Source: a virus
Reading direction: 5' to 3' (one strand)
IMG/VR virus record: IMGVR_UViG_3300047510_002172
Coordinates: 1 to 64,000 of that record
DNA: 64,000 nucleotides
Shown: positions 363 through 42,700 of the stretch, piece by piece
Layout of the letters: each line of letters begins with the position of its first letter
Position numbering within the stretch: position 1 is the stretch's first letter
The notes under the pieces: generated by a model
The model's database searches: none
Seen by the model: the letters and a program-made list of their open reading frames with translations, nothing else
Told to the model about the DNA's origin: nothing
Position numbers and translations under genes: made by a program

Positions 363-584
363 ATGACAAAACAATTTATTGCAGTACTTGGTAAAGTTGA
401 CGAAAACACGACGGAAGAGATCACATTAAAGGAAATAGCGGTAAATGCAGGAGATTACTTAGAGGCTCATAAAGTAGCACTATTTAAATGTAATTTAGCT
501 GAAGGAGAAATCGTATTTCAAATAAGAGAAGCTAGTACTCGTATTGTTAGATTTGATCACAAAAAGGGGTTTATAACTAATTAA
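363..584 (+). CDS. Small hypothetical protein
   Basis: This 73-residue protein begins MTKQFIAVLGKV and has an alternating hydrophobic/charged pattern that suggests a small beta-rich fold. I do not recognise a family. It is the only plus-strand gene in the left 56 kb, and its stop codon overlaps by 4 bases the stop of the converging 1503-residue gene (581-5092). No Shine-Dalgarno sequence precedes the ATG; the upstream sequence is an A-rich run. A TAAATA box lies about 38 bases upstream. No hairpin terminator is visible between the two convergent genes. Confidence 0.6.
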   Translation: MTKQFIAVLGKVDENTTEEITLKEIAVNAGDYLEAHKVALFKCNLAEGEIVFQIREASTRIVRFDHKKGFITN

Positions 585-3500
585 GAGTGATAGAACCCTA
601 CGTCGACTATCTTGTCACCGTCGACAAATAGCTTACCATCTACACGTCCACCAGCATCTGCAGCAGTACTTCCTACGAATGTTGGACCTGAGACCCAATT
701 TGAATTGACTCCGGCGCCTGTTATTAAGACCCCATAAGGCGGGGTAGTTACGTTTTGACTAAATCTACCAAATGTACCATATGTTGCAACTGCAAAAACA
801 GGTATTACTGTTCCTGCTGGATAGTAACCAGTACCGTTTACAGTACCGCCACCAGGTTTACCGCCACTACCGGTTTGAGTGGATACAACAGAAAGGAAAT
901 ATGAAGGTACTGCGACAGGTTCAATTACAGTTCTATTCATACCAAGTACTAACTCCGACTCTCCTTCTGTGGTGCGGTATGCGCTTACTGTAAAGCTGGA
1001 TGACGACACTGGAACCATATTAATAGATGGGTTGACTATTAGTAATGGGTCTGCGTTGCTAGCTTTACCATCGAAAGACCATACGTGGCTTGCATAAGGA
1101 TTATCATATAGATAACCCCCTAAGGTATTATTAGCAATACCCACATACGGAATATAGTCTCCGCTTAAACCGTACAGGCTTACGTAGCAAGATGAAAACG
1201 CGGTACTTGAAACACTATTTTTAAATGTGGTATTATAGAAGCGGCCATCCGAAGAATAAATACGAACACGTGGTCTAATTTGATCCAAGCTCAATATAGC
1301 ACCTAAGCTTAACGTTATTTCAAAATCGGCCCCAAAAGTACCTTCAATACCGTCAGCAGCAAGCGAAGCGCTATCGGATGTCAGAATCGAACTTAATGGT
1401 ATGTTAATTGTTGTAGCGTTGTATGTCAGTGTATACGCTGCTAGAATTGTATCGCTAGCTTTAATTATAAAGGTGATAATTTCAGGTAAAGTTGCACTAC
1501 CAGTATTAGTATCATAAACAGTGACTGAAAGTACCGTAGAAGAAGCGGCATTAATCAAGCTAAACGTTATTGTATAATCATTACCGTACCGGGCGTTATT
1601 ATTGTATAAATTACTATAAAGATTACCTACATAATCTGCAGAAGCGAAACTAAATAGTAATGGTAATGGTGCTGGAGTTGTTGTCGTGGTTGTAGTAGTT
1701 GTCGAAGTTTCGTAAATTATATTGCCAACCGTGGTTGTAACTAAACCAATAACATTAGTTAGATATGAAGTAGGGGTTCTTATAACTTCAGGTTTTAAAA
1801 CATTAAGAATTGCTTCCTGTACTTTATAAATTTTATCTAATGTTCTATTAATAACTGCAGAACTTACTATTTCATTACTATAGATATAATTACTTTCATC
1901 TGCACTCAACGAATTAATTAATTCGTTTGCAGAAAGATCTCGAGTTGTAAAATTAGAAAGATTATTGCTATTATCTAATGTAATAACATATTTGCTGTTA
2001 ATACTTTTTGCTAATAATTCGTGATTATAAAGTAAAGGTTTAAGAGCCTTATTATAAACCCAGTCTACTATAAATTCATTTTCATTAATTGTTATAGTGG
2101 ATAAAGACGTGTAATAAGTATCCAGTAAAGTAGTGTTGACTATTTCTTCTGTAACAGGTACATCAGTAAATTTAAATATTCTACCTGTAGTAATTAAATA
2201 AAAATAATAATTTTGATCTATAAAAGCAGTAACAATATTTTCAGATATACCTAATGAAGCTGTTGACTTGCTTGGAGATAATAATTTATTTACAAATATT
2301 CCATTACTTGTAAATTTATAAACATTTTCAGTAGTTACTACGTATAAAAACTTACCAGCCGGATCTATAAGAATCTTTTTAATATTAGCTGTAGACGGAA
2401 CTTCAAGTAAGTTAAATGAAGAAAGTAGAGCACTACTATTATTATAAATTAATACCTTAAACGGTGATGGAAACTTAACATCGTTAGGTACTATCTTACT
2501 CGAACTTTTACCAGAAGTTATGACCCCGTCTATACCTATCGCTTCTATCTTAAACGACGTGTATGTAGAAGAACTAGAAAATACATATGTGGTTAACTTT
2601 GGTAGTGTAGGAAAAATAGATAAATCAGAACTTATTGAATTTATTAAAGTATAAGAATCAGTTTCAGCAGTAGAACCGTATATATTAAAATTACTCGTTA
2701 CACCAGGATAATAATTCAACCGCTCCCCGTCATGGTTCCAAGTTACTCTGTACTGGGTTCCTATTTCAACTGCACTAGTGGTGACTGATGTAATTACTGG
2801 TACATTAGGTGCGTATATACTTCCTAGAATGTAAATATTACCTGTAGTATTATCAATATCGAAATGCTTTACCTCGTAAGCGCTAAGTTCAGAGCTATAA
2901 ATTGTATTAGTATAAGTTAACGCAGAATTATAAACTTTAATACATCTATTACCGATATCTCCTACATAGACCTGATTATTATAAACCTTGACGGTATTAG
3001 GGACAGGGTTATTATTGAAGGCGTTTCTGTCTGATAAAGTACCGTTACTGCCTCCGACTTGATTAACAGGCGTTAAGGCGCTATCAAGATAGTATCTATA
3101 CACTGATACTAAAGAATTTGAACCACCAAAATTTAAACTACCAAGCACGTAAAGATCCGTGCCATTACTATCTATACTATAGACATTGAGCGGAGTAGAA
3201 TTCTTTGCTACGGTCGAAAGTTGATTTACAATAGTATTATTAAAGTCATTTTTTCTAACCTGCACCAATCCATTATCAAAAGCTATATAGTTATTATAAT
3301 CAGGCGCTGCTAAACCGTTTTTATAAGATCTAAAATCTACTATACTTTCAGCGGGTATTATACCTGTATAACTACCAGAAAGATTAAAATACGCATTCGA
3401 TCCTGTCAGAGCATTATTCCAAGTCGGGAAAGCAACTAAATCTCTCAACCATTCAACTAGAGTCATATTTGGACTCTTTTTAATTGCATCAGTAATTCTG

Positions 3501-5092
3501 TTTAAATAACTGAAATTTTCTTTTAACTTACTATAAGCCGCATTTATATTATCTGCGACTGCCCATTCATTAGAGCCTATATTCACTTCTTCCTTAGAAT
3601 ATGGCAGCGTAAGATTTATACCTAAAGTGTCTTTATAATCTTCAAGATTTAAATCAGAATATGTATCTTGTATATAGAACCTTTGCGACGCTGTTACTGT
3701 GTAATTGTTACTACCGTCATTACCAGTTACTACAGCAGTATAAGGCACACTACTAGCTGCAGAATATGTATGAGCAAAATAAAGTGTAGTACTAGCTGCT
3801 GTTGAATACGTGTCAGTCTCTCCATCGCCCCAATCGACAGTTACACTTGTAATATTATTACTATCTGGCAAGACAGTCTGTATCCAGACAGGTATTCCAG
3901 TAACTGCAAATGTATACGGGGAATATATCTTAAAAGGTATAACTGCACTCGTAAGAGCGTCTGTTATAGTAAAGTCTACTATTGCGTCATATATCACTCT
4001 ACCATTGACTCCCGCTGTAGCTGCAAATGCACTTCCAGGCACTACGTAACCGTAGGTAGGATTTGTACTTAACACTCCATTGAATGTATAACGAAAATTA
4101 TTACCAGTATTTAAAATTTGATAATTACCCCCAGAAAGGTATGAATTTATAAAACGTGCTTTACCTATATAAGTACCTGGAGTGCAGCCTTGCCCGGTTA
4201 GAGTAATATCGTTCGGTCCGTAATAAGCGCCACTATCTAAAGTAATAGCAGAAGATCCTAATACAAAACCTCGACAGGATCCGTTTATGAATCGTACACC
4301 ACCAGAACATTCAAAAGAAGTAGTAGGTACCCAAGCTGCGGAGCCAGTAGTTGTTACTAATAATGTTAAGGAATCATATGGAGATGTAGTAATTGCGCTA
4401 GTAGTAACATATAGATTTATAGATGAAAGTAATGCCCCGCTTACAGAGTAACCAGAAGCCGCTACAACTCCTGACCTATATAAAACAGCAGATGTATAAG
4501 AAGGTATTTCCCCTCCTGTACTATTTCTTACAGTAGCTTTTATATAATTTGATGAAACGTTAGTTGTGTAGAAAACGCCACCTAAAGTATGCGTATCTAA
4601 ATAGACCGGTTCAGAGCCTGCTTCAATTATAGTAACTACATCAGGTATAATTACAGACTGCCCATATATAGCTGAAAAATTAGCGCTTAAAGCGCCGCGA
4701 CCCATTATAATAGGGTTAGCTGGTTGAACCCATGGAGCAGCTGTGACAGGTGGTACCGAAACCCCTGTGGCCGGAGCTGAGGCTGTAGGGTTCGATCCTG
4801 GCGTCTCGGTATCTATTTCTAAGGATATATATGCATTAACTGTAGAAAAAGTTAAATCTCTATCTGCATAATAATTTAAATAAACTCTAAAACCGTTAGT
4901 ACCTACTTCAGAAAAACTACGACTGATAGACTCTACTGTCGGTTCAAAATCTTGCGTAACAATATCTAGTATTTCAATACAGTCTTGTTTTTGTAGATAA
5001 GTTAGATCAGTACTTTTATTAACTAAGTTAGCAATAACCCCTCTTGCAAGCGGTAGTGAAAAAGAGGTATTTTCAAATCTAATTAATCTCAT
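581..5092 (-). CDS. Large multi-domain virion protein with PKD, FnIII-like and propeller-like segments
   Basis: This 1503-residue protein is probably a tail fibre or baseplate appendage. The N-terminus (about residues 1-90) looks like a virion-attachment segment. A PKD-type domain is visible at about 400-470 (key motif VDWGDGETDTY followed by HTYSA). Residues about 600-1050 hold repeated strand patterns resembling an NHL-type propeller, interrupted near 765-860 by an FnIII-like segment. A threonine tract ending TTPAP lies near residue 1130 and matches the long tracts of the 867-residue protein. The remainder is Ser/Thr-rich beta sandwich. It is the last gene of the large minus-strand block and starts 1 base after the stop of the gene upstream. 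The domains are read by eye; the virion location is inferred from context. Confidence 0.65.
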   Translation of the reverse strand: MRLIRFENTSFSLPLARGVIANLVNKSTDLTYLQKQDCIEILDIVTQDFEPTVESISRSFSEVGTNGFRVYLNYYADRDLTFSTVNAYISLEIDTETPGSNPTASAPATGVSVPPVTAAPWVQPANPIIMGRGALSANFSAIYGQSVIIPDVVTIIEAGSEPVYLDTHTLGGVFYTTNVSSNYIKATVRNSTGGEIPSYTSAVLYRSGVVAASGYSVSGALLSSINLYVTTSAITTSPYDSLTLLVTTTGSAAWVPTTSFECSGGVRFINGSCRGFVLGSSAITLDSGAYYGPNDITLTGQGCTPGTYIGKARFINSYLSGGNYQILNTGNNFRYTFNGVLSTNPTYGYVVPGSAFAATAGVNGRVIYDAIVDFTITDALTSAVIPFKIYSPYTFAVTGIPVWIQTVLPDSNNITSVTVDWGDGETDTYSTAASTTLYFAHTYSAASSVPYTAVVTGNDGSNNYTVTASQRFYIQDTYSDLNLEDYKDTLGINLTLPYSKEEVNIGSNEWAVADNINAAYSKLKENFSYLNRITDAIKKSPNMTLVEWLRDLVAFPTWNNALTGSNAYFNLSGSYTGIIPAESIVDFRSYKNGLAAPDYNNYIAFDNGLVQVRKNDFNNTIVNQLSTVAKNSTPLNVYSIDSNGTDLYVLGSLNFGGSNSLVSVYRYYLDSALTPVNQVGGSNGTLSDRNAFNNNPVPNTVKVYNNQVYVGDIGNRCIKVYNSALTYTNTIYSSELSAYEVKHFDIDNTTGNIYILGSIYAPNVPVITSVTTSAVEIGTQYRVTWNHDGERLNYYPGVTSNFNIYGSTAETDSYTLINSISSDLSIFPTLPKLTTYVFSSSSTYTSFKIEAIGIDGVITSGKSSSKIVPNDVKFPSPFKVLIYNNSSALLSSFNLLEVPSTANIKKILIDPAGKFLYVVTTENVYKFTSNGIFVNKLLSPSKSTASLGISENIVTAFIDQNYYFYLITTGRIFKFTDVPVTEEIVNTTLLDTYYTSLSTITINENEFIVDWVYNKALKPLLYNHELLAKSINSKYVITLDNSNNLSNFTTRDLSANELINSLSADESNYIYSNEIVSSAVINRTLDKIYKVQEAILNVLKPEVIRTPTSYLTNVIGLVTTTVGNIIYETSTTTTTTTTTPAPLPLLFSFASADYVGNLYSNLYNNNARYGNDYTITFSLINAASSTVLSVTVYDTNTGSATLPEIITFIIKASDTILAAYTLTYNATTINIPLSSILTSDSASLAADGIEGTFGADFEITLSLGAILSLDQIRPRVRIYSSDGRFYNTTFKNSVSSTAFSSCYVSLYGLSGDYIPYVGIANNTLGGYLYDNPYASHVWSFDGKASNADPLLIVNPSINMVPVSSSSFTVSAYRTTEGESELVLGMNRTVIEPVAVPSYFLSVVSTQTGSGGKPGGGTVNGTGYYPAGTVIPVFAVATYGTFGRFSQNVTTPPYGVLITGAGVNSNWVSGPTFVGSTAADAGGRVDGKLFVDGDKIVDVGFYHS

Positions 5093-5093
5093 A

Positions 5094-8000
5094 TTATTCC
5101 CAAATTATATTGTTGAGTTGTGTATGCACTGGTACGACTTTACTTAATGATGCAATTATGTTTTTCTCTATTATTTGTCTTACTGCTGTGTTAGTTATAT
5201 TAGAATTTTTAATTTTAATATTAAACATGTTAGACTTTGCGCCAGGCAATCTATGTAAGAAAAATCTTTCTATTTGTTCTAAATAATATCTTTCTCCGGT
5301 TGGCACTGACCATTTTAAATCTGTAAATGAACTCTTTAAGAATTGTTTTTGTATAGCTTTGATATCAGATTGCTGTAATGCCTGTGTATAATGTCTTACA
5401 TCTGCTATTTTACCTTTAAAGTTATATACATCTAACCCAGTATATTCTGCTAAAGTCTGCTTTTTAAAGCTAGCTGATCCAATAATTAAATCTGGATTAT
5501 TCTTGTTATTATATATTCTATATATACTTGAAGCACTACCAACCTGTGTGCTTTTTACGACGTTACCGTCTATATAAAACTTTAAAGTATTATTATTATC
5601 TAATGTTGCTGCAAAATGATGCCAACCAGGAGTTAAATAACTAACATCATAATTTAAATTAATTGCAGAACCAGTACTATTTTCCGTAGCTATATTACGC
5701 ACGAAAGCCTTTATAGATAAATCATTATCACTTTCTGCATTGTATATGTATTTTCTTTGATAATCGTACCCGGTAGGATCTCCTAGAGTTACATTTGAAC
5801 TGTCCGTTAAATTAACTGTAGTTACAATATCTCCTGTAGTAGAGTCAATTTTAAATAGCTTTTGTGTTTTTGGGTCTATGACTACACCATAATGTACTGT
5901 TGCACCTGTTACTTGACTTATTTCAGAAACGAATGTAATAATTCTAGGTTTACTATCTACCACATCTTCTACCCCAGATGCTACCGGGGCATTGGTTAAA
6001 TAAACATCCCAGATTAAAGTTCCATAATTATCTAACTTGCAAAGATTACGCTTAGCGTACAATAGCCAAATATTATTTTCGTGGTCGCAAGCTATGTATT
6101 CCCCGCTTACAGCAGACAAAATCGACGAAGTAGTTCCTGAGTACGGCTGCCTTGAAAGTATATTATCTGCTAAAGTAAATCTAGTGTTATTACTATCTAC
6201 CACACTATTACCTACTGTACCATTAAAATAGTATGGTATACCGTTCAAGTCAATGCCGTAATTATTATAGCCAGATTGTGTACCGCTTATGGTACCGGTT
6301 GTTGAAAGGGTACCATCTATATTGTACTTACGCCACACAAAAGATGAAGCTGCTGGTGAGGCAAATACTAGTATTTGTTTTTTACTGTTTTCCTGTATTA
6401 AATTAGCTCCAAAAATATCACCTGAGATAGATATAGAGTATGAATTTGCAATTAAATCATCTTGATCGTATACTAAAATTTGTTTGTTTTCTGTAACTAT
6501 GTAATAACTTGAATCGTATTCTGCTTTTAAAATAAAGTTTTTATTTGTTAAATCAGTAGGGGTAGATTTAAGCGTAACTAAGTTAGTATTAGTTGTTGTT
6601 ACTGTGTTTCTTGCTATACTTAAAAACGGCGTCAAAAGAGTATTATTTTTCGTAATACCTATACCGCCACTATAATAATTACCTACAATTTGACTACCTT
6701 GTACATTACCCCAGTTAGTATTATAAGCATAAGCTGCCAAAGTTACACCAGGGTAGTTAAGTTCAGAATCGGTATAGTCTGACACCCCGTAACATACACT
6801 AGTATCAATTGATTCCTGATTGGTGCCTTGAAATATCTCTACAGCACTTGTAGCAAAATTTTTAATGATACCAGCGCTTAAACCAGTTGCTTCATTTATG
6901 AGAGGAGTAGTCCAGTTTTTATAAAAACGAGTTAAAGAAGAAGAAAGAGCATCAACTACAGTTTTGTTATCTTCTGGTCCTATACGGTGATAAACGTACA
7001 AGCTTTCCGGGTTAAAAGTCTGTGTAGAAGGTGTATCCCAGATTAAATTTGGACGATTATTTGCTGCACTAGTTACAGCTGTAGAAGTTAAAACACTAGT
7101 TAAATTAATATGCGCCGGATCGTAATATCTATCCATCCATACAGCTTCTCCGCTAGCAGGGGATGCAGATAGCCAGGAGCAAAAATAAACCCCATTCTGT
7201 ACGCCAGGGTTGTTGCCCCAGTTAGTATATTTTCTATAATTAGCTTTTTTAACAAATAGTCGATCAGAGCGATAAGGTGATGAGCCTCCTAATGCGCCGG
7301 TCTTTACTAGCGTTGAAGCTGATAACGCTAAAGAAGTAGCGCTTACTGGAAAGTGAAAATATGTATCTCTATCTTTTACAAATATTTTTGCAATCTCTGA
7401 ACCTTTATAACTTAGATAGATTTTATCATTGCCGTCTGTCGTATTTAAACCGGTATATAATTTATTATAGTTTCTTAATTGAGTGCTTAAAGTAGGTGTT
7501 TGTATACCTTCTGCAGAGTAGTAATTCTTAAGAGGTGTTATATTAACATTTGCGTAGTCTATTGTTGTATCTAATGTGGTGTAGGGTGTAGAAATTAAAT
7601 AGTTACTACAGAGTGCTTTAGTGGCTGTGCTTATAGTTAAATCATTCGGTGTAGTGACATATTTCGCTAAATTTGATTCTCCTTTATTAGGTATGGTATT
7701 ATAATAAAAACGATTTAAGTAGAAAGTTTGTACAGAGCTAAAATTAGTATCTAAATAAGGTACTAGCCCGACAATGTTAATACCGGTATAAACATTAAAT
7801 AAAGTGCTATAATTAGTGAAAATAACTGCTTTATCGTTAAAAAGAGTAACATTAAACAGCTGTGTTGAAGCTCCGGTATATGTCTGAACACCTAAAGTAG
7901 TACTACCTGTTCTAGTAATACATAAATTACTATCAACATTAGTAAAGAAAACAGTACCGCTAGAAGTTTGATCTAAAGTAAAAACAGTAGCGCTAGATAT

Positions 8001-8318
8001 ATTACTAGTATAAGTTATATTTGTACTGGATACAGCAAGATATAACGGAGTACTACCAGATAGAAACGAAATAGTGGTATTAGTTATTACATTAGTTCTA
8101 TCTACTTCTATATAGTCAGCAACTTTATCGTTTAAATTAAAATTATCTGTAAGAAACAATAAATTATCTTGATTAGCTGCAAAATCTTTTGCACCGGACA
8201 AGATACCAGATATATTAATGTATGCCCCTTCTATCGTGTAAAACGTAGTGCTATCTATAGTTACATTTTGATCATAACCATATTGCAAACTAACCGGAGA
8301 AGGGCTAACAATTGCCAT
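5094..8318 (-). CDS. Large virion protein with C-terminal LamG-type domain
   Basis: This 1074-residue protein is likely an appendage or host-recognition protein. Residues about 580-760 show repeated WLLY and ILVY strand patterns like a beta-propeller. Residues about 780-1000 carry a concanavalin A/LamG-type jelly roll, with the diagnostic stretch GWHHFAATLDNNNTLKFYID near residue 890 and a final IADVRHY motif. The last 60 residues (LEQIERFFLHRLPGAKS onward) form a separate, helical-looking segment. A TAAGTA box (8324-8329) lies 5 bases upstream of the ATG, and no ribosome binding site is seen. It stands 1 base from the next gene (581-5092), so the two are probably co-transcribed and may form one appendage. 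LamG domains commonly bind glycans, but no ligand can be inferred here. Confidence 0.7.
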   Translation of the reverse strand: MAIVSPSPVSLQYGYDQNVTIDSTTFYTIEGAYINISGILSGAKDFAANQDNLLFLTDNFNLNDKVADYIEVDRTNVITNTTISFLSGSTPLYLAVSSTNITYTSNISSATVFTLDQTSSGTVFFTNVDSNLCITRTGSTTLGVQTYTGASTQLFNVTLFNDKAVIFTNYSTLFNVYTGINIVGLVPYLDTNFSSVQTFYLNRFYYNTIPNKGESNLAKYVTTPNDLTISTATKALCSNYLISTPYTTLDTTIDYANVNITPLKNYYSAEGIQTPTLSTQLRNYNKLYTGLNTTDGNDKIYLSYKGSEIAKIFVKDRDTYFHFPVSATSLALSASTLVKTGALGGSSPYRSDRLFVKKANYRKYTNWGNNPGVQNGVYFCSWLSASPASGEAVWMDRYYDPAHINLTSVLTSTAVTSAANNRPNLIWDTPSTQTFNPESLYVYHRIGPEDNKTVVDALSSSLTRFYKNWTTPLINEATGLSAGIIKNFATSAVEIFQGTNQESIDTSVCYGVSDYTDSELNYPGVTLAAYAYNTNWGNVQGSQIVGNYYSGGIGITKNNTLLTPFLSIARNTVTTTNTNLVTLKSTPTDLTNKNFILKAEYDSSYYIVTENKQILVYDQDDLIANSYSISISGDIFGANLIQENSKKQILVFASPAASSFVWRKYNIDGTLSTTGTISGTQSGYNNYGIDLNGIPYYFNGTVGNSVVDSNNTRFTLADNILSRQPYSGTTSSILSAVSGEYIACDHENNIWLLYAKRNLCKLDNYGTLIWDVYLTNAPVASGVEDVVDSKPRIITFVSEISQVTGATVHYGVVIDPKTQKLFKIDSTTGDIVTTVNLTDSSNVTLGDPTGYDYQRKYIYNAESDNDLSIKAFVRNIATENSTGSAINLNYDVSYLTPGWHHFAATLDNNNTLKFYIDGNVVKSTQVGSASSIYRIYNNKNNPDLIIGSASFKKQTLAEYTGLDVYNFKGKIADVRHYTQALQQSDIKAIQKQFLKSSFTDLKWSVPTGERYYLEQIERFFLHRLPGAKSNMFNIKIKNSNITNTAVRQIIEKNIIASLSKVVPVHTQLNNIIWE

Positions 8319-8330
8319 GAAAATACTTAG

Positions 8331-8354
8331 GATTAGATAGCAAATAGTCTAATC
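8331..8354 (-). other. Intercistronic hairpin
   Basis: GATTAGA (8331-8337) pairs with TCTAATC (8348-8354) in a 7-bp stem with a 10-base loop. It covers the stop codon of the 66-residue gene and sits just upstream of the TAAGTA box and start of the 1074-residue gene. There is no U-run, so it is not a standard terminator. RNA processing or chance are both possible. Confidence 0.3.
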
Positions 8355-8549
8355 AGCCGCAGAAGAAATATTAATCGTTCCTACAAATGAAGTTAATTGA
8401 AAATCAGATAAATCCGTTATAGACCCTATAGTTAGAATATTATCAGAATGGATAACTATCCCTTTTGTGAGATCTTCGGTTACCATCCATAATATTTGCT
8501 GCTTATTAGAGTTTTCCCATTTTACTATCTGTCCTTGTTTAAGCATCAT
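8349..8549 (-). CDS. Small hypothetical protein
   Basis: This 66-residue protein begins MMLKQGQIVKWENSN, a pattern typical of small SH3-like beta-barrel proteins (short strands with VKW and ILWMV). I do not recognise its family. It sits between the sialyltransferase-like gene and the 1074-residue appendage gene and is separated from both by short gaps. Two consecutive ATG codons could start it, and a TTTAAATA box abuts the first, so the second ATG (M2, at 8546) may be the real start. Its function is unknown; in this position an assembly or accessory role for the neighbouring fibre is conceivable but unsupported. Confidence 0.55.
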   Translation of the reverse strand: MMLKQGQIVKWENSNKQQILWMVTEDLTKGIVIHSDNILTIGSITDLSDFQLTSFVGTINISSAAD

Positions 8550-8559
8550 ATTTAAATTA

Positions 8560-9126
8560 TTATAAAAATATTACTTTTTTATCGTTAACTAATTTATCTA
8601 TTACTTTTTTTTCTATATCAGGTTTGTGCAAATTACCTTTTTTAACTGCATTAAAATAATGATGCTCTGTGCGTTCCCACCAATCAAAACCTGTAATAGT
8701 AAGCTGAGAATATTCCTTAAGAAGAATCCAAATAGCAAACAGTCCCGTAGAATAGCAGTAATATTCTTTTTTATCTATACCAGAATAATTAACTAAATCC
8801 ATTAAATCTGATGATTCTGTTTTATAGATATTTTTAGCTTGAGGCATAAAATTTATAAAATCCTTATATAGCGCATCTTTATTTTTATCCCATTGCCAAC
8901 TATGTAAGTATATTTTTTTATAAGGTATACCCAGTCTCCATTGAGCAGGTTTGTTTGTAAAATTAATTACATTAAACCAGATTGTAGTTTTTGTCCCGAC
9001 ATTTTGTTCATATTTCTTTGTTTCATACTCGTTGAATCTTACTACCTCTTCGTATGAATCAATTAAGGATCCGTTTTTTTTATCTAGTAAAGACGTTCCG
9101 TTACCCACTACAATAATTTTTTGCAT
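8560..9126 (-). CDS. GT29 sialyltransferase-like glycosyltransferase
   Basis: This 188-residue protein carries the order of motifs that defines family GT29 sialyltransferases. A sialylmotif-L-like segment covers residues 4-50 (VVGNGTSLL, then VVRFN, then NVGTKTT). A sialylmotif-S-like segment covers about 126-147 (STGLFAIWILL followed by TITGFDWW). A VS-like EHHYF lies at 154-158 with its histidine. GT29 enzymes move sialic acid from CMP-sialic acid to Gal or GalNAc in animals. The phage protein is shorter and lacks a transmembrane anchor, so it is presumably a cytosolic catalytic core acting in the infected cell. Its donor and acceptor are unknown. It starts 4 bases after the stop of a GT2/GT27-like gene, so the two are almost certainly co-expressed, downstream of a Thr/Pro-rich fibre gene. 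Confidence 0.78.
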   Translation of the reverse strand: MQKIIVVGNGTSLLDKKNGSLIDSYEEVVRFNEYETKKYEQNVGTKTTIWFNVINFTNKPAQWRLGIPYKKIYLHSWQWDKNKDALYKDFINFMPQAKNIYKTESSDLMDLVNYSGIDKKEYYCYSTGLFAIWILLKEYSQLTITGFDWWERTEHHYFNAVKKGNLHKPDIEKKVIDKLVNDKKVIFL

Positions 9127-9130
9127 TAGT

Positions 9131-9982
9131 TTACAATTTTAAAGCCGTTACTGCTTTATTTAAAATATTTTTTATTACCGGCTCTGGAATCTTTTGCTTG
9201 AAAGCATTAACTATACCTTGTATAAATTCATGCTGAGGATCTTTAAGTATCTCTAGCCAGCCTACAAAATAATTCCAAATACGGTCTTCAAGTATATTAG
9301 GGTAAGGTACTCCGTTAGGTCTTCCAAATCTATGATTCCATTTAAGTTGAGGTAAGCATATACAACTAGCATCGTTTCTTCTAAATTTTTCATGTATATA
9401 ACCTTCTTCCCCACCAAAGCCTTTAAAGTGTTCGTTAAACCCAGGCCAGGCAGCTGTACGGCATGAAAATAAACCAAGTCCCATCATAGGTATTTTAAAC
9501 GGTTCGCCCTTTTCATATTTTTCTTTATTAGTAGCCCAGACCCCGAACATTACATCTCGCCAGACTGGATCGAAATGCGTAGAATATGATTTGAGGTCAT
9601 CATACCACAACGGACCTTGCACGAGATTATTAGTTTCGGGATTAGAATCGTAGTATTTCAATAAAGTCTGTATGCCATCTTTCTCAATTAATACGTGCGA
9701 GTCCATACAAAGTGTGTATTCACCAGCAGCGTTTTTAAAAATTTCATTACGAGTAGAAGTACTCTTTTTTGCAGTATAAGGTATATATTTTTCTTTAGCC
9801 CAATTAGTTATAAAGTTTTTTATTTCTTTACCGTGAGCACTTTCAGGGTTGTTATCAACTACAATAATCTCTACTTCATTTTTTAACTCCGCTAAATGGT
9901 ACATCTTCAACGCCTGCACGGTAAAAAAAACACCGTCATAGTCATCGTATACTGCCATTCCTATAGTTAATTTCTTAGACAT
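9131..9982 (-). CDS. GT2/GT27-like glycosyltransferase with a DSH metal motif
   Basis: This 283-residue GT-A fold glycosyltransferase has an N-terminal nucleotide-sugar strand (LTIGMAVYDDYDG), then EIIVVDNNP at 38-46, and a metal-binding DSH at 94-96 in place of the usual DxD. A second catalytic segment, GFGGEEGYIHEKFRRND (about 188-204), is followed by WNHRFGRP with His217. The DSH and GGE...H features recall polypeptide GalNAc-transferases (GT27), which start mucin-type O-glycans on Ser/Thr. Other GT2 enzymes also vary here, so substrate is inferred only. No lectin domain or membrane anchor is present. A TATAAATT box (9988-9995) lies 5 bases upstream of the ATG. The upstream gene encodes a poly-threonine fibre protein and the downstream gene is a GT29-like enzyme. 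Confidence 0.78.
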   Translation of the reverse strand: MSKKLTIGMAVYDDYDGVFFTVQALKMYHLAELKNEVEIIVVDNNPESAHGKEIKNFITNWAKEKYIPYTAKKSTSTRNEIFKNAAGEYTLCMDSHVLIEKDGIQTLLKYYDSNPETNNLVQGPLWYDDLKSYSTHFDPVWRDVMFGVWATNKEKYEKGEPFKIPMMGLGLFSCRTAAWPGFNEHFKGFGGEEGYIHEKFRRNDASCICLPQLKWNHRFGRPNGVPYPNILEDRIWNYFVGWLEILKDPQHEFIQGIVNAFKQKIPEPVIKNILNKAVTALKL

Positions 9983-9987
9983 ACTAT

Positions 9988-9995
9988 AATTTATA
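9988..9995 (-). promoter_or_regulatory. T4-late-like TATAAATT box before the GT genes
   Basis: The box reads TATAAATT on the minus strand and ends 5 bases before the ATG of the GT2/GT27-like gene. It matches 7 of 8 bases of the T4 late promoter consensus TATAAATA. If used, the transcript would begin at or very near the start codon. This is inferred from sequence similarity. Confidence 0.5.
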
Positions 9996-10019
9996 TGCTA
10001 ATTTAAATTAGTCAAATAA

Positions 10020-12623
10020 TTACGGCGGAGGTGTAGTTGTAGTAGTTGTTGTTGGTGGAGGTGGCGGAGGTGTAGTCGTAGTAGTAGTCGGAGGAGGCGG
10101 TGGAGGTGTAGTCGTAGTAGTTGTAGTTAAAGTGAAAGTAGCTGTTATAGTCGCATTTCCTACAGGCATTACTATTTGAGTAGGATTATCTGTATTAGTG
10201 AAGCTACCAGCAAATGAATGAGCCCAAATCCAGTTATTAAAGATATAACCCAGGCTAGGAGATGCAGTAATATTTGTACTGTTACTTCCTACAGGTACAT
10301 TTTGTGTACTTCCTGCAGTACCTCCGGTATTATATGCAACTGTTAATAATGGAGCCGGGGTCGTTGTTGTAGTCGTAGTTGGTGGTGGTGGAGGTATTGT
10401 AGTAGTAGTCGTAGTGGTCGGGGCTGGAGTCGTTGTAGTAGTAGTCGTTGTGGTCGGGGCTGGAGTCGTTGTAGTAGTAGTCGTTGTGGTAGTAGTCGTT
10501 GTGGTCGGGGCTGGAGTCGTTGTAGTAGTAGTCGTTGTGGTAGTAGTAGTCGTAGTGGTAGTAGTAGTCGTAGTGGTAGTAGTCGTAGTGGTAGTAGTCG
10601 TTGTGGTAGTAGTAGTCGTAGTGGTAGTAGTCGTTGTGGTAGTAGTCGTTGTGGTAGTGTTATAAACAAATACTGACCAGCCAAAATTTACGTCGTCTTG
10701 TGGATCTGTCAAACCAGCTACATTAGAGAGTTGTGCGGTATAGTAAAAACGCGTTCCAGAGCCTTCTGCCATTCCTGTTCCTTTATATGCAGAAATTTCA
10801 CTATTCCAAATAGCATAAGTAGTGCCTGTTGCTTCCTCTCCAGCTGTTACATAGGTACCACCGTCCCAGTTATACCACTGATATGTCACTGGAGTGCTTC
10901 CATCGTGGTCTACAATTTCTATGTTTATATTGGTACCTGATAGTATTGGATCAGCTGATGCAGGCTTGTTAGGGCTATTATCCCATGGACTAAAATTCAC
11001 ATAAGAAGGCAATATTGGCCCGTTAAAAATTAAATACCAACCAAATTTAGGAGAAGTACCGTACTGGTTTAATAATTCTACAGCGTAATAAAACGCACTT
11101 ACTCCCGGAGAGCCTGTCGCACTTCCTACACCGGGGGGATACGTATTGCCAAGATAATACGCAGATGTAGATGCTGTCTCTCCAGATGCTTCTACATATC
11201 CGATACCGTCCCAGTCATACCACTTGTAGCCTGTTACAGGCGACACGGCCGTATAACCAACTACTTCAACCAGCATATTGTCAGTATAATTAAATGTAGT
11301 ACCGGCTGGTGGATCAAACACTGCGTCTGTGGCAACACCACTTTCTAGATTAAATTGCCATCCCAGTATTTCAGAGGTACCACCTAAATTAGTTATTTCT
11401 ACCCCGTAATAATACGTACTAACAGCTGGGCTTACATTAGTATCAATATCAGGGTCTCCCGGAGGGTAACCATCACCCAAATTATATGCTGATGCTGCAG
11501 AACCGGAAGGAGCCCCTGTTGGATTCCATGCACTTGCTACCCAGTTATACCATTGATAATTTGATACAGGCGAACAACCGTCTTGACTAGTTACTGTTAC
11601 AGAAAGAGAGCTTCCAAGATAATAAGTGCCTTGAGACGCTGGGTCAAAACCTACTTCCGTTACTATACCCGGGGTTAAATAAACAGTCCATCCAAATATT
11701 TGAGATTGACCGAGCGCATTGGTTAATTGTACTCCATAATAATAAGTACTTACCGCTGTTGTTAAATTAACATCTGGGTCTCCCGGCGGATAACCAGCAC
11801 CTAGATCATAAGCTGAAACTGTAGCTCCGGATACGGCCTCATTTGGTACCCAGGCATCCGCTATCCAGTCGTACCATTGATAATTAGTAATAGGGCCGTC
11901 CCCGGTATACCCAGTTACTGTAACAGAAAGAGAATTACCTAAACAATATGTACCTTCTGAAGCAGGGCTAAAAAATACTTCTGTAATGGTACCAGCTGAT
12001 AGAAATACTGCACTTAAATTAAAGCTACTAGGCGGGAATGAAAATACTAACGGGTTTCCGGTAATAGGTTCAGATATATTTGTTTCATAACCACTAACCC
12101 AATACCCGAATACCGAGCCGTCACTCGGCCCAGCTGATACCTGCACAAGATTGGTATAATTGTAAGGTCCTATATTTTCTGCAGATGCAGGATCTGTTAC
12201 ACCACTACCTGCGCCTGCATAGTATAAATTATAATAGAGATCAACAAGTGTATATATAGCAGATACACTTGTTGTACCAGAGTTTTGTATTGTTATGGTA
12301 AGATCATTTATAGTAGCCCCGTTATTAGCAGTTAAACTACTAAATTGGTAACCGGCGCTAGCAGCTGTGAGTAAGGTAAATTCAAAACCTATACCAGATG
12401 CAGAGCCACTAGTAGTACCATTATCTCTTCTCGTGTAACCACCGGATGCTGGTACGGAAACAATACTATAATTATAGTATTCTCCCGATGCCGGCCAAAA
12501 CTGCACCCAGTTACCGTCTTTTTTGACATACCCCTCAGTAATAGTTCTCCAAGAGTTACTGTGTTTAGTATAAAACTCAATAACTTCTTTCCAGGCACCG
12601 CTTACTTTAGTATAGATACTCAT
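10020..12623 (-). CDS. Ig-like fibre protein with mucin-like poly-threonine tracts
   Basis: This 867-residue protein is probably a virion fibre. Residues 1-50 are a short attachment-like segment with repeated SWR and NWVQFWP motifs. Four Ig-like repeats follow (about 205-640), each with a conserved YQWY or YKWY strand and a YPPG or YYYGV motif. Residues about 655-760 are almost pure threonine broken by PAP and PPPPP. A bacterial B-repeat-like domain follows at about 761-830 (FNNW, MPVGNATITATF). The C-terminus alternates runs of threonine and proline and ends PPP. Such Thr/Pro tracts are the classic acceptor type for dense O-glycosylation, and the next two genes encode glycosyltransferases. 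No signal peptide is seen, so this is a virion rather than a secreted protein. Confidence 0.75.
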   Translation of the reverse strand: MSIYTKVSGAWKEVIEFYTKHSNSWRTITEGYVKKDGNWVQFWPASGEYYNYSIVSVPASGGYTRRDNGTTSGSASGIGFEFTLLTAASAGYQFSSLTANNGATINDLTITIQNSGTTSVSAIYTLVDLYYNLYYAGAGSGVTDPASAENIGPYNYTNLVQVSAGPSDGSVFGYWVSGYETNISEPITGNPLVFSFPPSSFNLSAVFLSAGTITEVFFSPASEGTYCLGNSLSVTVTGYTGDGPITNYQWYDWIADAWVPNEAVSGATVSAYDLGAGYPPGDPDVNLTTAVSTYYYGVQLTNALGQSQIFGWTVYLTPGIVTEVGFDPASQGTYYLGSSLSVTVTSQDGCSPVSNYQWYNWVASAWNPTGAPSGSAASAYNLGDGYPPGDPDIDTNVSPAVSTYYYGVEITNLGGTSEILGWQFNLESGVATDAVFDPPAGTTFNYTDNMLVEVVGYTAVSPVTGYKWYDWDGIGYVEASGETASTSAYYLGNTYPPGVGSATGSPGVSAFYYAVELLNQYGTSPKFGWYLIFNGPILPSYVNFSPWDNSPNKPASADPILSGTNINIEIVDHDGSTPVTYQWYNWDGGTYVTAGEEATGTTYAIWNSEISAYKGTGMAEGSGTRFYYTAQLSNVAGLTDPQDDVNFGWSVFVYNTTTTTTTTTTTTTTTTTTTTTTTTTTTTTTTTTTTTTTTTTTTTTTTTPAPTTTTTTTTTTTTTTPAPTTTTTTTTTPAPTTTTTTTIPPPPPTTTTTTTPAPLLTVAYNTGGTAGSTQNVPVGSNSTNITASPSLGYIFNNWIWAHSFAGSFTNTDNPTQIVMPVGNATITATFTLTTTTTTTPPPPPPTTTTTTPPPPPPTTTTTTTPPP
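10350..10662 (-). repeat. Poly-threonine/PAP coding microsatellite
   Basis: About 310 bases are built from short variants of ACT, ACC, ACA and ACG codons, with GCC/CCG-containing breaks that encode PAP. On the plus strand it appears as long runs of GTAGTAGTCGTTGTG. The threonine codons are mixed rather than identical. The tract should still be prone to length change by slippage or recombination. Confidence 0.85.
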
Positions 12624-33734: not shown

Positions 33735-36700
33735 TTATTTTTTAATATATGCTACTACCCCGCCTTGGTTTTTATTAGCACCGGCATCATCAATATCCGC
33801 GGTAACAGCAGTCGGGGTATAATCGTATTCTACTATGTTTTGTACTGGTAAACGAGTACCCCAATTATATAGTACATTAGCATTATTTATAAGATAATTC
33901 TGAGATGCTCCTGCAGATACTTTTTTCCAAGTACCACCTATACCTATTTGAGTAGGAGACGGGTAAGAAGTTATATTGGGTAGTTCAGTCAGCCTTTTCA
34001 AATAAGTAAATGATAAATCCATATTATTACTTTGTGTATTTGCTGTGGTAAAAAACAACTGGTCGCTATACGGGTACGGACCAGGACCAATCATAAAGAT
34101 TTTTCCATCAAAACGTTTGGCAATAAAATTAGAATAATACAATTGAGTCCAACTACTTGTGCCAATTTGTACCGGAGAAGATGTAGGAATAGTACTCCCG
34201 TTCCCAAAAAAAGGTAAAAAAACACTACCACTAGAGCCGAAGCCTCCACCCCATTGAAATAAGGCCCCGTCAGAACGTATAGCGGAAGTAATATTTCTAT
34301 TGACAAGTACTTGTGTCCAACTACTAGTACCAATTTGCACTGGAAATATTTTGTTAATAGTTGTCCCGTCTCCAAGTTGGCCGTCAGCATTGTTTCCCCA
34401 ACCAAATAATGCACCATCTGAGCGTATTACAAAATAATTTCCTATCGAGCTACTCCCGGCTCCAACACTAAGCTGAGTCCAACTACTTGTACCTATTTGT
34501 ACCGGAGAAGACCTTAAAACAACGCCGTCCCCTAAACCACCAGGCGCGCTGCCCCATGTGAACAATGCGCCATCAGAGCGAATAGCTCCTATTTGCTGGT
34601 AGGTACCAGCAACTTGAATCCAACTACTTGTACCAATTTGTACCGGGGAAGACCTATTAATAGTGGTATTGTCTCCGATCGCTCCGTAAAAGACAGCGCT
34701 AAATAAGTTATTAGTACCCCAGCCAAATAAAGAACCGCCTAACCGTATTGCATGCATCGTACCTGAAGGCCCTCCTGAACAAAGAGATATCCAGCTACTT
34801 GTGCCAATTTGCACCGGAGAAGACTTATTAGTAGTGGTATTATCTCCAAGGTTTCCTTGAAATCCAGAACCCCAGCCGAATAAAGCTCCGTCAGAACGTA
34901 TAGCAAAACCACAATCCCCAGTAGCAATTACTTGACTCCAGCTACTTGTGCCAATTTGTACCGGAGAAGACTTAAATACTGTAGTTCCGTCTCCAAGTAT
35001 GCCGTTTTGGCCGCTACCCCAAGCAAATAATGCCCCATCAGAACGTATTGCTAAACCTGTGCCATATGTATTAGTATATTGTACTTGAGTCCAACTATAT
35101 GTATTAGTTCTATTATATCCCCAAGCATATGCTCTGTTATTTATATCTACCCCTAATCCATTGTCGTAACCAGCACTTGCAAAGTTCCATGAGTTACCAT
35201 CTACAAGTACCGGGCTTGTAATTAAACTACCAGTTAGTACCGGGGAGTTTCTAGAAGTAGTTGTACCATCTCCTATACTTCCAGCGGAATTAAGTTCATT
35301 TATTCCCCAAGCAAACATTGCCCCATCATTACGTATTGCGAAAGGTGTATTTCCTTTACCGTATATTTCTCTCCAAGGATTTGCACCTAATTGTACCGGG
35401 GAAGATCTTGCTAAAGCGGTTCCATCTCCAGCAAGACCAAGAACACCTAAAAAGTTACTACCCCAACCAAATAATAAATTAGCACTAGTGATGCCGTACG
35501 TATTTCCTGAGCCGGCGGCTAGCATATACCAACTACTAGAACCAATTTGAATCGGTGAAGATTTATTAATAGTAGTATTATCTCCTAATTGACCTCCGCT
35601 ATTACCACCCCACGTAAATAATGATCCATTAGAGCGTAAGGCTACTGTATGGGTAGCTCCCGCATAAACTTGAGACCAACTACTGGTACCAATTTGTGTT
35701 GGAGATTTAACTACTGCGTAAGAACCTAACTGTACCGGAGAACTCTTTGTAACTACAGTACCGTCACCGGTTGCACCCTGCGCGTTTTCACCTTGACCGA
35801 ATAATACATAATTTAAACGTATTTCATGCGCACTACTAACTTGTATCCAGCTACTTGTACCGATCTGTACTGGAGATGATTTATCTGTTGTAGTACTATC
35901 TCCTATTACACCAGCTGGACTATTATTACGGCCCCAAGCAAATAGAGAACCACCTGAACGTATAGCGCGATTATGATTAAAAAGGGCTCCTGTTGCTATT
36001 TGAGTCCAGCTACTTGTACCGATTTGTACTGGAGATGAGGTAGAGGAAAGAGAACCTAATAAGACCGGAGAGCTTCTTGAAATTAATGAAAATGTCGGTT
36101 GCAAAAAACCGACATTACTACTATTGGTACTACCATCTACCACATTACCACCGGCCCAATAAATTAAATTATCACTTCTTAATATTTGTGTGCTATTTAC
36201 CCCTGTAATAACTTGTGTCCAACTGCTTGTACCGATTTGTACCGCAGAAGATCTAGACACTGTAGTATTATCTCCTAGAGCACCACGGCCGCCATTTCCC
36301 CATGTAAATAATGCTCCATCAGTACGAATAGCAGCAGCATTATTATAACCCAAAGATGCGGCTTTACTAGCAGTACTCCATGGACCGTTATTACCAATTT
36401 GTACTGGGGATGAACGAGATATAGTTGTAGTAAGTCCGAGTACATTATTACCTGCGCCCCAGCTCCATAGAGTTCCATCGCTTCTACGGGCGTACACTTG
36501 AACACTAGCAAAACCACCATAATCATTCAACCCCTGTACCTGGGTCCAACTACTAGTACCGACTTGTATTGGAGAAGAAGTGTTAACAGTACTATTTTGT
36601 CCGAGCTGACCACCAGTTTCGTTACCGGACGGGCCGTAATTGCTACCCCAGGTAAATAAAGCACCATCAATGCGTATTGCAGCCCCGGCAGATGGCCCTG

Positions 36701-39700
36701 CAAGTACTTGAGACCAGCTACTTGTGCCGATCTGCACGGGAGAAAAATAACATGATATTAATCCAACCTGTACTGGAGAAGAGTTATACCCTGTGTCAAT
36801 ATTATTTCCAAAAACTGATCTAGCTATACCTAATTGTATGTAGTTTAAATCTCCTAATGTAGCCCCACCGGCTTCTCTACCCCATGTAAATAACCCGCCA
36901 TCTGTACGTATTGCCGTCCCGGTTATTTCATTACTGTTATCTCTGTAAGACGTGCCAAGTTGAGACCAGCTACTACTACCAATTTGTACCGGAGAAGATT
37001 TAGACACTGTAGTATTATCACCAATATTATAATTTGCACCGGAGCCCCATGCAAATAATGCACCGTCAGAACGTATCCCGTAGCTAGTATTACCGGACCG
37101 TACTTGAGTCCAGCTACTAGTACCGATTTGTACTGGAGAAGATTTATCTACAGTAGTACCATCTCCTAATTGACCTAAACTATTAGACCCCCATGCAAAT
37201 AAAGCCCCGTCGGACCGAATAGCATGTCTTGTTGAAATAAATGTCCAGCTGCTAGTACCGATTTGTACTGGAGAGGACTTGTTAATAGTAGTACTATCTC
37301 CAAGCCATCCAAGCTGATTATACCCCCAAGCAAATAAGCTGCCGCCATTTCTTATTGCAAAAACAGTAGTATTACCGCCTCGTATTTGAGTCCAACTACT
37401 TGTACCTACTTGTACCGGAGATGAACGAGCAGTAGTTGCATTACTACCTAATGCTCCGTTAGTTCCGGATCCCCAAGTAAATAAACCGCCATCAGTACGT
37501 ATTGCAACTGTTGTACCAGCCGGTCCATCGACCTGGGTCCAGCTGCTGGTGCCGATCTGTACTGGAGATGATCTGTTTATAACAGTATTATCTCCAAGAG
37601 CACCTGATCCATTGTTTCCCCAAGTAAATAATGCTCCATCAGTACGTATAGCGAAAGACTGATATTCTCCGGCGCCTACTTTTGTCCAACTACTTGTACC
37701 GATTTGTAGCGGAGAGTAATACTTACTAGAAATTCTATTGTCCCCCAAAACTCCGAAGCCGTTTATATCATATCCCCAAGTAAAAAGTAACCCATCAGAA
37801 CGGACACCTACAGCATGGCTAAAGCCAAACGCTACCTGAGCCCAGGATTTAGTATAATCTTTACGGTCATTCCAACTTTCATTAGTACCAAGTTGTCCAG
37901 AATTAAACATACCCCAACCAAACAATGCACCGTCTGAACGTATCGCTAAAGTACTGTATAAGTTAGTACTGACTTGAGTCCAGCTACTTGTGCCAATTTG
38001 TACCGGGGAAGAACGGGTTAATTCAACATTATTCCCTGTAGCATATAATCCGGCTGATGTATATAGACCGTCAGGGGAGCCCCAGGCAAATAAGGCACCG
38101 TCTTCCCTTATAGCATATGTTGCATAATACGCATTTACATTTTGCCACTTACTTGTTCCTATATAAACAGGTGAAGATCTACTAATAGTAGTATTATCTC
38201 CAAGTAAACCGGTGGAGTTGCTGCCCCATGCTACTAATGCATTAGACCACTTTTCTATAACAAAAGTAGACAATCCGGCTTTTGTTATATTTTCAGCTTT
38301 TAATACACCAATTATTACCGGAGAAGATCTACTTATTGTAGTATTATCCCCTACTTGCCCGGCAAAATTGTAGCCCCAACCAAAAACTTGATAATCAAAA
38401 TCTCTAATAGCAGCTGCATCTCTAGCGCCGCCATATGTAACCATTACCCAGCTACTTGTTCCAATTTGTATAGGAGAAGACGTACTGGTCTGGGTATTAT
38501 TACCTAACGGTCCGTTAATGCCGTTACCCCACGTGAATAGAGCTCCATCATTTCTTATAGCCCCTTGTGTGATATCTCGAGTATTACCTACCCATTTCCA
38601 ACTACGGGCATGTAAGTCTCTTGGAGATAGTACGACTTCAGATGTATTAGAACTTCCGAGTTCTCCTGAAGAACCAGAACGCCAAGTATATAATTTATTA
38701 TCAGTTGATACTCCTAAATTAGCTAGTCCTCCTGCATGTACCTGAGACCAGCTTATATTAGTAATCTGGGTAGGTGTTCTATAGACTTTATCTAAACCAA
38801 TTTGTACCGGAGAAGATCTTGGGGCTGTGGTACCATCACCGACTGGAAACGCTGGACCTCCATCATAACCGTTATATCCCCAATGGTATATCTTAGAATT
38901 TCTTATACCATAAGTAGTAGTATTTCCGCCTGTAGTAATTAAAGTCCAGCTATCTGTTCCTATCTGTACAGGGGAAGCATAAAATGGGTAGTACCCTATT
39001 GCAGTGGGGGTATTAGGAAGATTACCAGGTTGAAATTGTATACCGGCGTTATATGGATAAGGGCCACCCGCAGAAACAAGCGGCACAGTGGCATTCCATA
39101 GGGTTTGACTAGCGCCAGGTCCCCATCCATAAAGAGTCTTATCAGAACGTATTGCAATAATACCTACTTGTTCTATGATAGAACTAAAACCAAATAACGG
39201 GTAATTATGTACAAACGACCAACTACTACCAATGCCAATTTGTACAGGGGAACTAGTGTCGTATCTTGAAGCATTACCTACATTATAAATAATGCTACTT
39301 GATATTGAATTGCGGCCCCAACCAAATAAAGCACCATCTACCCGTATAGCAAAATTAGCTAAACTACCCATAGTGGATATAAACGTCCAGCTACTTGTAC
39401 CAATTTGTACCGGAGAAGATTTAGATACTGTAGTGCCATCTCCTAACTGACCACTAGAGTTAGCTCCCCAGGTAAATAACCTGCCATCAGATCTTATAGC
39501 GGCGTTACCACTGACAATTGTCCAGCTACTTGTACCGATTTGTACCGGAGAAGATTTAATTACTGTTGTGCCATCTCCTAATTGACCGTCCTGATTAACT
39601 CCCCAGGTAAATAAGGCACCGTCAGACCTTATAGCAGAAAAAGCAGGAAGAGAATTACCTGTTCTGTACCCTGCTACTTGTATCCAGCTACTTGTACCAA

Positions 39701-42700
39701 CCTGTACCGGGGAAGACCGAGACACAGTAGCATTTGACCCTAAAGCGCCTGAACTACCAGAACCCCAAGTAAATAAAGCACCGTCAGATCTAATGGCCGC
39801 GTATGTATTATTAAAAGTAGATGAAGTAAGCGCAACCTGTATCCAGCTACTTGTACCGATTTGTACCGGAGAAGATTTATTTACAGTAGTACTATCTCCT
39901 AGCTGACCGGAACTATTAGACCCCCAAGTAAATAAGGCGCCGTCAGATCTTATAGCGGCACTATTATTTGGGCACGCGTCTAACTGAGTCCAGCTACTCG
40001 TACCTATTTGTATAGGGTATAATATACCGCTAAAATTCGCAAATTCAGGTATACCGCCACTCCCGGAGGAGCTGTTCCCTAAAAAGAATAGACCACCGTC
40101 ATTTCTCAGGGCTAAAATCTGTCCAGTGCCAAAGCCATTGCTGCCGCCGCCCTTAATTTGCGTCCAAGATTGTCTATAGTCATTATAACTAATATTGTTA
40201 ATACCTAAACCTCCAGGGTCAATATTACTAGTTTGATTAAGTCCCCAGCCAAACAAGGCACCATCAGATCGTATTGCAAAACTATTTCTACCAGCTCGTA
40301 CCTGAGACCAACTACTTGTACCTACCTGTACTGGGGAAGAACGAGGCTGAAAAGTACCATCCCCGAGAATGCCTGAAAATGCAATATTAGGCCCCCAGGT
40401 AAACAACCTTCCATCTGAGCGGATTGCAGCGGTATAGCTGAGCATTGAAACTTGCGTCCAGCTACTTGTGCCTATTTGTACTGGGGATGATCTGTTTATA
40501 ATAGTATTATCTCCAATACTACCAAAATTGTTATACCCCCAGGTAAATAACCCGCCATCAGATCTTATAGCCCCGGTTATACTAGTACCAATAGCTACTT
40601 GAGTCCAACTACTTGTACCTATTTGTACGGGTGAGGACTTATTTATAGTGGTATTGTCTCCTAACTGTCCAACATTATTATATCCCCATGTAAATAGACT
40701 ACCACCAATTCTTATAGCTATACTACTATCAAAACGAGAGCTAATTTGAGTCCAACTACTTGTACCTACCTGTACTGGTGAAGACCGTGACACAGTAGTA
40801 CCTGCCCCTAGCTGACCAAAATTATTTAATCCCCAAGTAAATAAAGCACCATCACTACGCATTGCGAGTGTATACCTATCACTCGCTACTACTTGAGACC
40901 AATTACTAGTACCGATCTGCACCGGAGAGGATTTAGTAACGGTCGTACTATCACCTAACTGACCGTTAGCATTAATTCCCCAAGTATATAATTTACTATT
41001 CGAGTCTATTGCAGCAACGTGATTTGTTCCAGCACTTATCTGAGTCCAAGAAATATTATCTCCTGCAAAGAAGGTACCGTTACCCGGGCCTGTGTCTCCG
41101 TATGCGCCCCAAGTAAACAAGGATCCGTCTGAACGAATCGCATAGCTTCTTCCTGCAGGAGTGTTTACTGCAATACCAAGACCATATGTAACTTGTGTAA
41201 AACTAGTTGAACCGCCGATTAATACAGGAGACGATCTATTAATTGTCGTTCCGTCTCCAATTTGATAAAGATCATTTCTACCCCATGCAAATAAAGCGCC
41301 ATCTTTACGAATTGCTATAGGTGTGTACGCGTAACCATAAATTTGACCCGGTGCCGCGATGGCCATCCCTGCAGCAAGTTGAATCCAGCTACTTGTACCA
41401 ATCTGTACCGGGGAAGATTTTTTGACTGTAGTGTTATCGCCAAGCGCGCCAAAATCATTAAGACCCCAAGCAAACAAGGCTCCGTCTGAACGTATTGCGT
41501 ATGTAGAAGCTCCTTGAGCGCATACAACTTGAGTCCAGCTACTTGTACCGACCTGTACCGGGGAATAGGTATTAATTGTACTGTTTATACCTAATTGCCC
41601 ATCAAGATTAGGCCCGAAAATAAATAATGCACCATCAGTTCTTATGTCTGCACCATGCCAAGTATTTGAATATGTACCAACGGTAGACCAAGATTGGGCA
41701 GCATTAGTAATATTAATACTATTTTGTCCAAGCTCACCATAAAGATTGGATCCCCAAGCAAATAGCCCTCCATCCGACCGTATTGCTATAGTATGTGCAG
41801 TACCCTGTCCGACCTGAGTCCAGCTACTTGTACCCACTTGTACCGGAGAAGACCTATTTACATATGGATACACACTTTCTCCAAGTACTCCGTAATCTCC
41901 TTTACCCCAAGTAAATAGTCTACCATCAGAACGTATTGCTGCAGCATTATTGTTACCAGCTGCAACGGCTGTCCAGCTACTTGAACCAAGTTGTACTGGA
42001 GAGGATCTATTTAAAGTACTATTATCTCCTGCAGCACCATATACATTATAACCCCAAGCAAACAGAGCACCGTCTGAACGTATAGCAACACTATGATCTG
42101 CGCCAGCTCCTACTTTGCTCCAGCTACTAGTACCAATTTGCACTGGAGAGGATTTACTTAGAATAGTATTATCTCCAAGACCGCCACCATTATCATTACG
42201 ACCCCAAGCAAATAAAGCACCATCTACGCGTATTGCTAAAGCATGGAACTGACCAGCTGCGACCTGAGACCAGCTACTTGTACCAAGTTGTACCGGGGAT
42301 GAACGAAAACCTAGTGCACCTATACCTAATTCCCCATAATTATTACCGGCACCCCAAGCTAATAATGCACCATCTGACCGTATACCAAAAGTACGGAACT
42401 GGGTAGCACTTGCAAAACCGTTCGCAACTTGGGTCCAAGATAAAGTACCATCGAGATTAACTGCGTTATTACCTATCTGTCCAAAAGAGTTATCTCCCCA
42501 ACCGAATAAAGCACCATCAGATCTAATTGCATGAGTTGTAACACTATTAGTACCAATTTGAATCCAGCTACTCGTACCTACCTGTACCGGGGAAGAATAA
42601 TTAACAGAAAAAGAATTTATATTTAATCCTAATTGGGCATTAGAGTTGCTACCCCAAGCGAATAAGGCACCATCTATACGTAATGCCATAGTATGAGAAT

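Follow-up and report, generated by a model that had tools for sequence, protein, structure and literature searches.

A possible phage cassette for mucin-type O-glycosylation of tail-fibre linkers: a GT27-like transferase and an optional GT29-type capping enzyme

A fibre gene followed by two transferase genes

Why should a phage gene for a tail-fibre-like protein with long threonine tracts be followed, in one direction and nearly end to end, by genes for two glycosyltransferase-like proteins? The locus lies in the window (the whole 64,000-nucleotide stretch analysed here), the record of which is a 68.9-kb virus fragment with a T4-type terminase. A sequence-only reading had proposed that the phage decorates its own fibre with sialylated mucin-type glycans, and the gene order on which it built (poly-Thr fibre, then GT2/GT27-like, then GT29-like, all on the minus strand) is confirmed. 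The answer favored here, with a probability of about 55%, is a cassette for O-glycosylation of the virion that acts on Thr/Ser-rich fibre linkers, with an acidic ulosonate cap as an option. The more specific version, phage mucin-type O-glycosylation of Thr/Ser-rich tail-fibre linkers by a GT27-like initiator and a GT29-type enzyme adding an ulosonic-acid cap, is more tentative and is held at somewhat less than even odds. The features of the locus, in the order of transcription, are:

12623-10020, minus strand: tail-fibre-like protein, 867 aa, the proposed acceptor (PF18998, phrog_36019, tail-gene flanks)
10359..10658, minus strand: main poly-Thr/PAP tract, fibre residues 656-755, mixed Thr codons
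10020..10127, minus strand: C-terminal Thr/Pro tract, fibre residues 833-867
9982-9131, minus strand: GT2-like GT-A transferase, 283 aa, GT27-like fold, proposed initiating O-glycosyltransferase (PF00535, model)
9695..9703, minus strand: D94-S95-H96 metal motif of the GT27-like enzyme (aligned to GalNAc-T2 D224/H226)
9126-8560, minus strand: GT29-type CMP-sugar transferase, 188 aa, proposed capping enzyme (PF00777, sialylmotifs, fold)
8349..8549, minus strand: 66-aa ORF, the downstream border of the GT29 gene (directly after the GT2-like gene in the relative L008)

Tail-type proteins are encoded on both flanks of the cassette. After it, on the same strand, comes a tail protein with a LamG-type lectin domain (5094-8318), which also has a weak ricin-B-type match (E 0.0026, under the cut-off). 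A second Thr run, of 9 codons (1677-1702, minus strand), lies in a 1503-aa gene (581-5092) and is a possible further acceptor; a single ORF of 4069 aa (33735-45944, minus strand) occupies part of the tail region. No tRNA genes were found in the window. Scarcity of Shine-Dalgarno sites is a pointer to Bacteroidota-type hosts, and since a Shine-Dalgarno-like site precedes only 2 of 26 window genes, a host of that type is hinted at.

A GT2-like transferase with a predicted GT27 fold

The sole curated Pfam match above cut-off for the first transferase is PF00535 (5.5e-10). A profile of its family, searched against PDB sequences, returns TarP and chondroitin synthase and no GT27 entry, so that sequence alone would have missed the link that emerges from the predicted structure (pLDDT 95, pTM 0.92): the best 50 Foldseek matches of the model are all GT27, and in comparison with the PDB 29 GT27 entries (Z 20.1-24.2) stand ahead of everything else, the next match scoring 18.1. 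The best PDB match aligns 258 of the 283 residues at 2.9 Å, and up to 261 residues are aligned among the GT27 entries. As modelled, the protein has the fold of a GT27 catalytic domain; closer grouping with other GT2 structures, raised earlier as a way in which the assignment might fail, is not what the model shows.

The catalytic layout points the same way. By sequence alignment only, D94, H96, E192 and H217 correspond to D224, H226, E334 and H359 of human GalNAc-T2 (the reference sequence of which was confirmed against PDB entry 4d0t), where D224, H226 and H359 are the Mn ligands and E334 is a donor contact (PMC4388629). All four are invariant in 78 of 78 GT2-like sequences. So are the position matching G309 and F189, which replaces W331 and yields Phe-Gly-Gly-Glu where GT27 has W331-E334, while R78, opposite R208, is R or K. 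The DSH motif from which the earlier reading argued is present at residues 94-96, but only its D and H are invariant in the family; the middle residue is C in 57 sequences, S in 17 and P in 4.

What, then, is shared with GT27 (GalNAc-T2, 4d0t and 2ffu), and what is not? Shared are the GT-A fold over the full 283 residues, D-x-H with the distal His, and an aromatic-Gly-Gly-Glu element. The phage enzyme, in contrast, is about half the size, has no ricin lectin domain (no ricin-type Pfam match at E<=1), usually has Cys in the middle of DxH, has Phe for W331, and has no significant sequence similarity to GT27: hhalign of the family against one GalNAc-T2 gives collinear alignments (E 0.25 and 0.018) that are not significant. 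That is why it is named GT27-like and not GT27; the earlier assignment survives for fold and catalytic layout, but the sequence by itself does not place the protein in that family.

The second transferase belongs to GT29

Membership of the 188-aa protein in GT29 is firm, because four lines of evidence agree: 1) It matches PF00777 at 2.1e-18, with 67.1 bits against a cut-off of 23, while none of 14 control genomes has a match. 2) The sialylmotif cores are present. An IMG/VR scan with the GT29 alignment yielded 15 phage loci, and the motif alignment has 13 rows, in which the cores are invariant except for T127 (T or S): N9 and N32 of the L motif (N147 and N170 of human ST3Gal1), S126-T127-G128 of the S motif, H156-Y157 of motif III (H299-Y300 of ST3Gal1), and H167-x4-E172 of the VS motif (H316-x4-E321), the His of which is the catalytic base (PMC6884586). 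3) Searched against PDB sequences, the GT29 profile finds ST3Gal1 at 1e-10 over nearly its whole length. 4) The best 30 Foldseek matches of the model (pLDDT 84.5) are all GT29, with Z of 11.4-13.6 to GT29 structures versus 10.9 for the GT42 enzyme CstII. The family had been proposed from sialylmotif-like segments, with their absence from an alignment as the ground for doubt, and the proposal holds.

With the animal enzymes (ST3Gal1, 2wml; ST6GalNAc2, 6apl) the phage protein has PF00777, the L, S, III and VS cores and the whole-chain fold in common; it differs in its 188-aa length and in having no stem, no membrane anchor and none of the conserved Cys pair (C142/C281), which is absent from the alignment. 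The missing pair is what one expects of a cytoplasmic enzyme, and the PF00777 profile does not need it. Bacterial GT29 enzymes were described in 2018, in a text that mentions neither phage nor virus (PMC5811610). A search of a phage collection with the GT29 protein gave three weak records, while the GT2-like protein and the fibre gave no match there. Two further GT29-like matches (L103 and L104, 32%) come from two contigs of one Akkermansiaceae genome.

A proposed optional cap, and its sugar

The nearest relative of the window, L008, has a GT2-like protein 88% identical to the window's, and there the GT2 gene runs directly into the 66-aa gene; the window's GT29 gene sits exactly between these two. 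The GT29 gene is optional cargo, present only in some phages of the group. Where both transferases occur they may be adjacent (L089) or separated by one methyltransferase gene (L002), and GT29 loci (L092 and L098) are also found on the L422 and L423 contigs, which carry longer, more distant GT2 relatives (386-389 aa). A search of related genomes for the gene trio accordingly finds GT2 and GT29 with a Ser/Thr-rich tail gene in L002, L089 and the L422/L423 contigs.

Other genes also keep company with GT29. Related methyltransferases ('HQPWELRYHQ') directly precede it in L002 (5369-6010) and L007 (5385-5990), on contigs otherwise different, and may methylate the glycan. In L099 and L003 a different protein separates GT29 from a Thr-containing tail-type gene: a family of about 300 aa ('ICAQP..YYxWQxDxML'; L003:5090-6001, L099:7120-8016) that is perhaps another transferase, the L003 copy having no Pfam match.

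What would the cap be? No CMP-sugar synthetase or cytidylyltransferase is found in the 68.9-kb record; either the host or the part of the genome that the record lacks must therefore supply the donor. Neighbors elsewhere are more informative. In L095 a KdsB-like CMP-Kdo synthetase gene (7076-7834, plus strand; 2e-52, below the equivalog cut-off) lies directly upstream of the phage GT29 gene (8001-8510), and genes for a cupin-like and a GDP-mannose 4,6-dehydratase-like protein follow. On the bacterial contig L105, GT29 is followed by a PseF-like cytidylyltransferase and a KDN/Kdo-type phosphatase. The two sets of neighbors point to CMP-ulosonates in general; the KdsB-like gene, the one phage donor-synthesis gene found adjoining GT29, favors Kdo. 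A plant GT29, RCKT1, is reported to be a Kdo transferase (PMC11288761). On these three grounds "ulosonic acid" is the best description of the cap; Kdo is no less likely than sialic acid, and "sialylated" becomes the weakest step of the earlier reading.

Does the pair follow Thr/Ser-rich tail genes elsewhere?

A Ser/Thr-rich tract or tail gene adjoins GT2 in the window and in L008, L009, L002, L012, L013, L015, L018, L023/L025/L044 and L089. The tracts vary: poly-Thr in L008, L009 and L002, TTTTPEP in L013, TTTEEP/TTTAEP in L015, TTSTTPGP in L012 and ESSAPS in L089. Since the last of these is Ser-rich, it is the hydroxyl and not threonine as such that is kept. In L422 and L423 the gene immediately upstream of the distant GT2 relative encodes a Cys-rich tail protein, with linkers of TTTTTTT and TTPEPTT, respectively. 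(The L422 protein, 8778-11318, has an apparent intein/Hint-like segment, 'CFLPNSLVLMENG...VFHNC'; in L165, poly-Ser and poly-Thr are combined in one tail-type protein, the gene for which ends some 4.4 kb before GT2.) On the GT2 tree, GT2 has such a neighbor in 9 of the 11 rows of the clade that includes the window, and GT2s next to a tract have arisen several times, in separate branches. For 6 of 74 representatives the 1-kb bin just upstream of GT2 (0-1 kb) holds a tract, which is true of 9 of the 682 other bins of that size (p 0.002, a value that ignores shared ancestry).

The association is not obligate, and most of the contigs compared are fragments. Only 1 of 15 contigs with the window's terminase type has GT2; among the 13 of these relatives scanned for Thr runs, that contig has them and the 12 GT2-negative ones do not. 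A large lineage places GT2 among helicase, primase and nuclease genes (19 of 20 contigs GT2-positive), and there runs of 8 Thr codons occur in only 4 of the 19 (incomplete) contigs, whereas a strict poly-Thr pattern searched over GT2-positive contigs had matched 13 of 20; no general link between GT2 and poly-Thr is claimed for that reason.

The main rivals are modification of the host surface and another virion protein as the target. Could both enzymes, like other phage polysaccharide genes, alter LPS or capsule, to exclude superinfection or change the serotype, and stand after a fibre gene only incidentally? GT29 does occur with GDP-mannose 4,6-dehydratase in L006, L007, L095 and L100, the Kdo suggested by L095 is an LPS sugar, more transferase and methyltransferase genes come after the pair in L002, and GT2 relatives are found far from fibres as well. 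However, the enzymes come repeatedly directly after Thr/Ser-rich tail genes, no lipid-carrier gene is seen adjoining the pair in the window, and the predicted fold of the GT2-like protein resembles GT27 and not the polysaccharide GT2 enzymes. Host-surface modification is on balance unlikely, though it deserves to be kept in mind.

Less probable again is the suggestion that the Thr runs are unmodified linkers grown by repeat slippage and that a different protein of the virion is the enzymes' substrate. The fibre begins with a match to phrog_36019 and has an InlB-type repeat (Flg_new_2, PF18998, 2e-8) at its C-terminus; its Thr runs, of 48, 14, 9, 7, 7, 7, 6 and 7 residues, are spaced by PAP and poly-Pro. 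They do contain repeat units of 5-6 codons, and the first 650 residues are closely similar to those of the L008 fibre while the tract region, which in L008 separates repeated domains, is wholly different; some GT2-positive phages, moreover, have no Thr runs. Yet all four Thr codons are in use (53 ACT, 20 ACA, 19 ACG, 13 ACC), which makes the run a feature of the protein and not a single-codon DNA repeat, and Ser/Thr content is kept across lineages although the repeats differ (PEP, EEP, APS). That the GT2-like protein glycosylates phage DNA in the manner of the T4 glucosyltransferases is very improbable: in the largest group the gene does have replication genes around it, with a dNMP-kinase-like gene as a neighbor, but PF00303 (thymidylate synthase/hydroxymethylase) is found in none of 20 GT2-positive records, of up to 323 kb, and the window's gene lies in the tail region.

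The proposed cassette and its meaning

For acceptor, donor sugars, order of steps and purpose, we infer the following scheme for a cassette that glycosylates the fibre. During infection, inside the host cell, the GT27-like enzyme would transfer a sugar from a nucleotide-sugar (UDP-HexNAc is a first guess) to Thr/Ser hydroxyls of the fibre's Thr/Pro linkers; to that glycan the GT29-type enzyme would then add an ulosonic acid from a CMP-activated donor, either Kdo or a nonulosonic acid of the sialic type. The outcome would be stiff, acidic, mucin-like tail linkers, which might shield the Thr tracts from proteases, hold the fibres extended, or mask them.

O-glycosylated virions have precedent. 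Mycobacteriophage capsids and tail tubes are O-glycosylated (Freeman et al. 2023, as cited in PMC12619734 and PMC11652166), and there too phage-encoded transferases place O-glycans on virion proteins; the targets are others, and what these two citing papers relate of the system includes no mention of a mucin-like tract or of GT29. The earlier statement that no phage system of this form has been described thus stands for these enzymes in the literature searched, but not for O-glycosylation of virions as such.

The GT2-like family is widespread in IMG/VR (one query confirmed 300 stretches), yet the window's copy, like its GT29-type neighbor, matches no PHROG family. Should it prove to be a polypeptide O-glycosyltransferase, there would be a testable function for poly-Thr fibres in uncultured phages, a compact cytoplasmic relative of enzymes that are difficult to produce in bacteria, and a clue to how mucin-type glycosylation arose. 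The GT29 part means that acidic capping enzymes are also carried as phage cargo; if the whole proposal is true, both halves of a hallmark animal mucin pathway exist in phages too.
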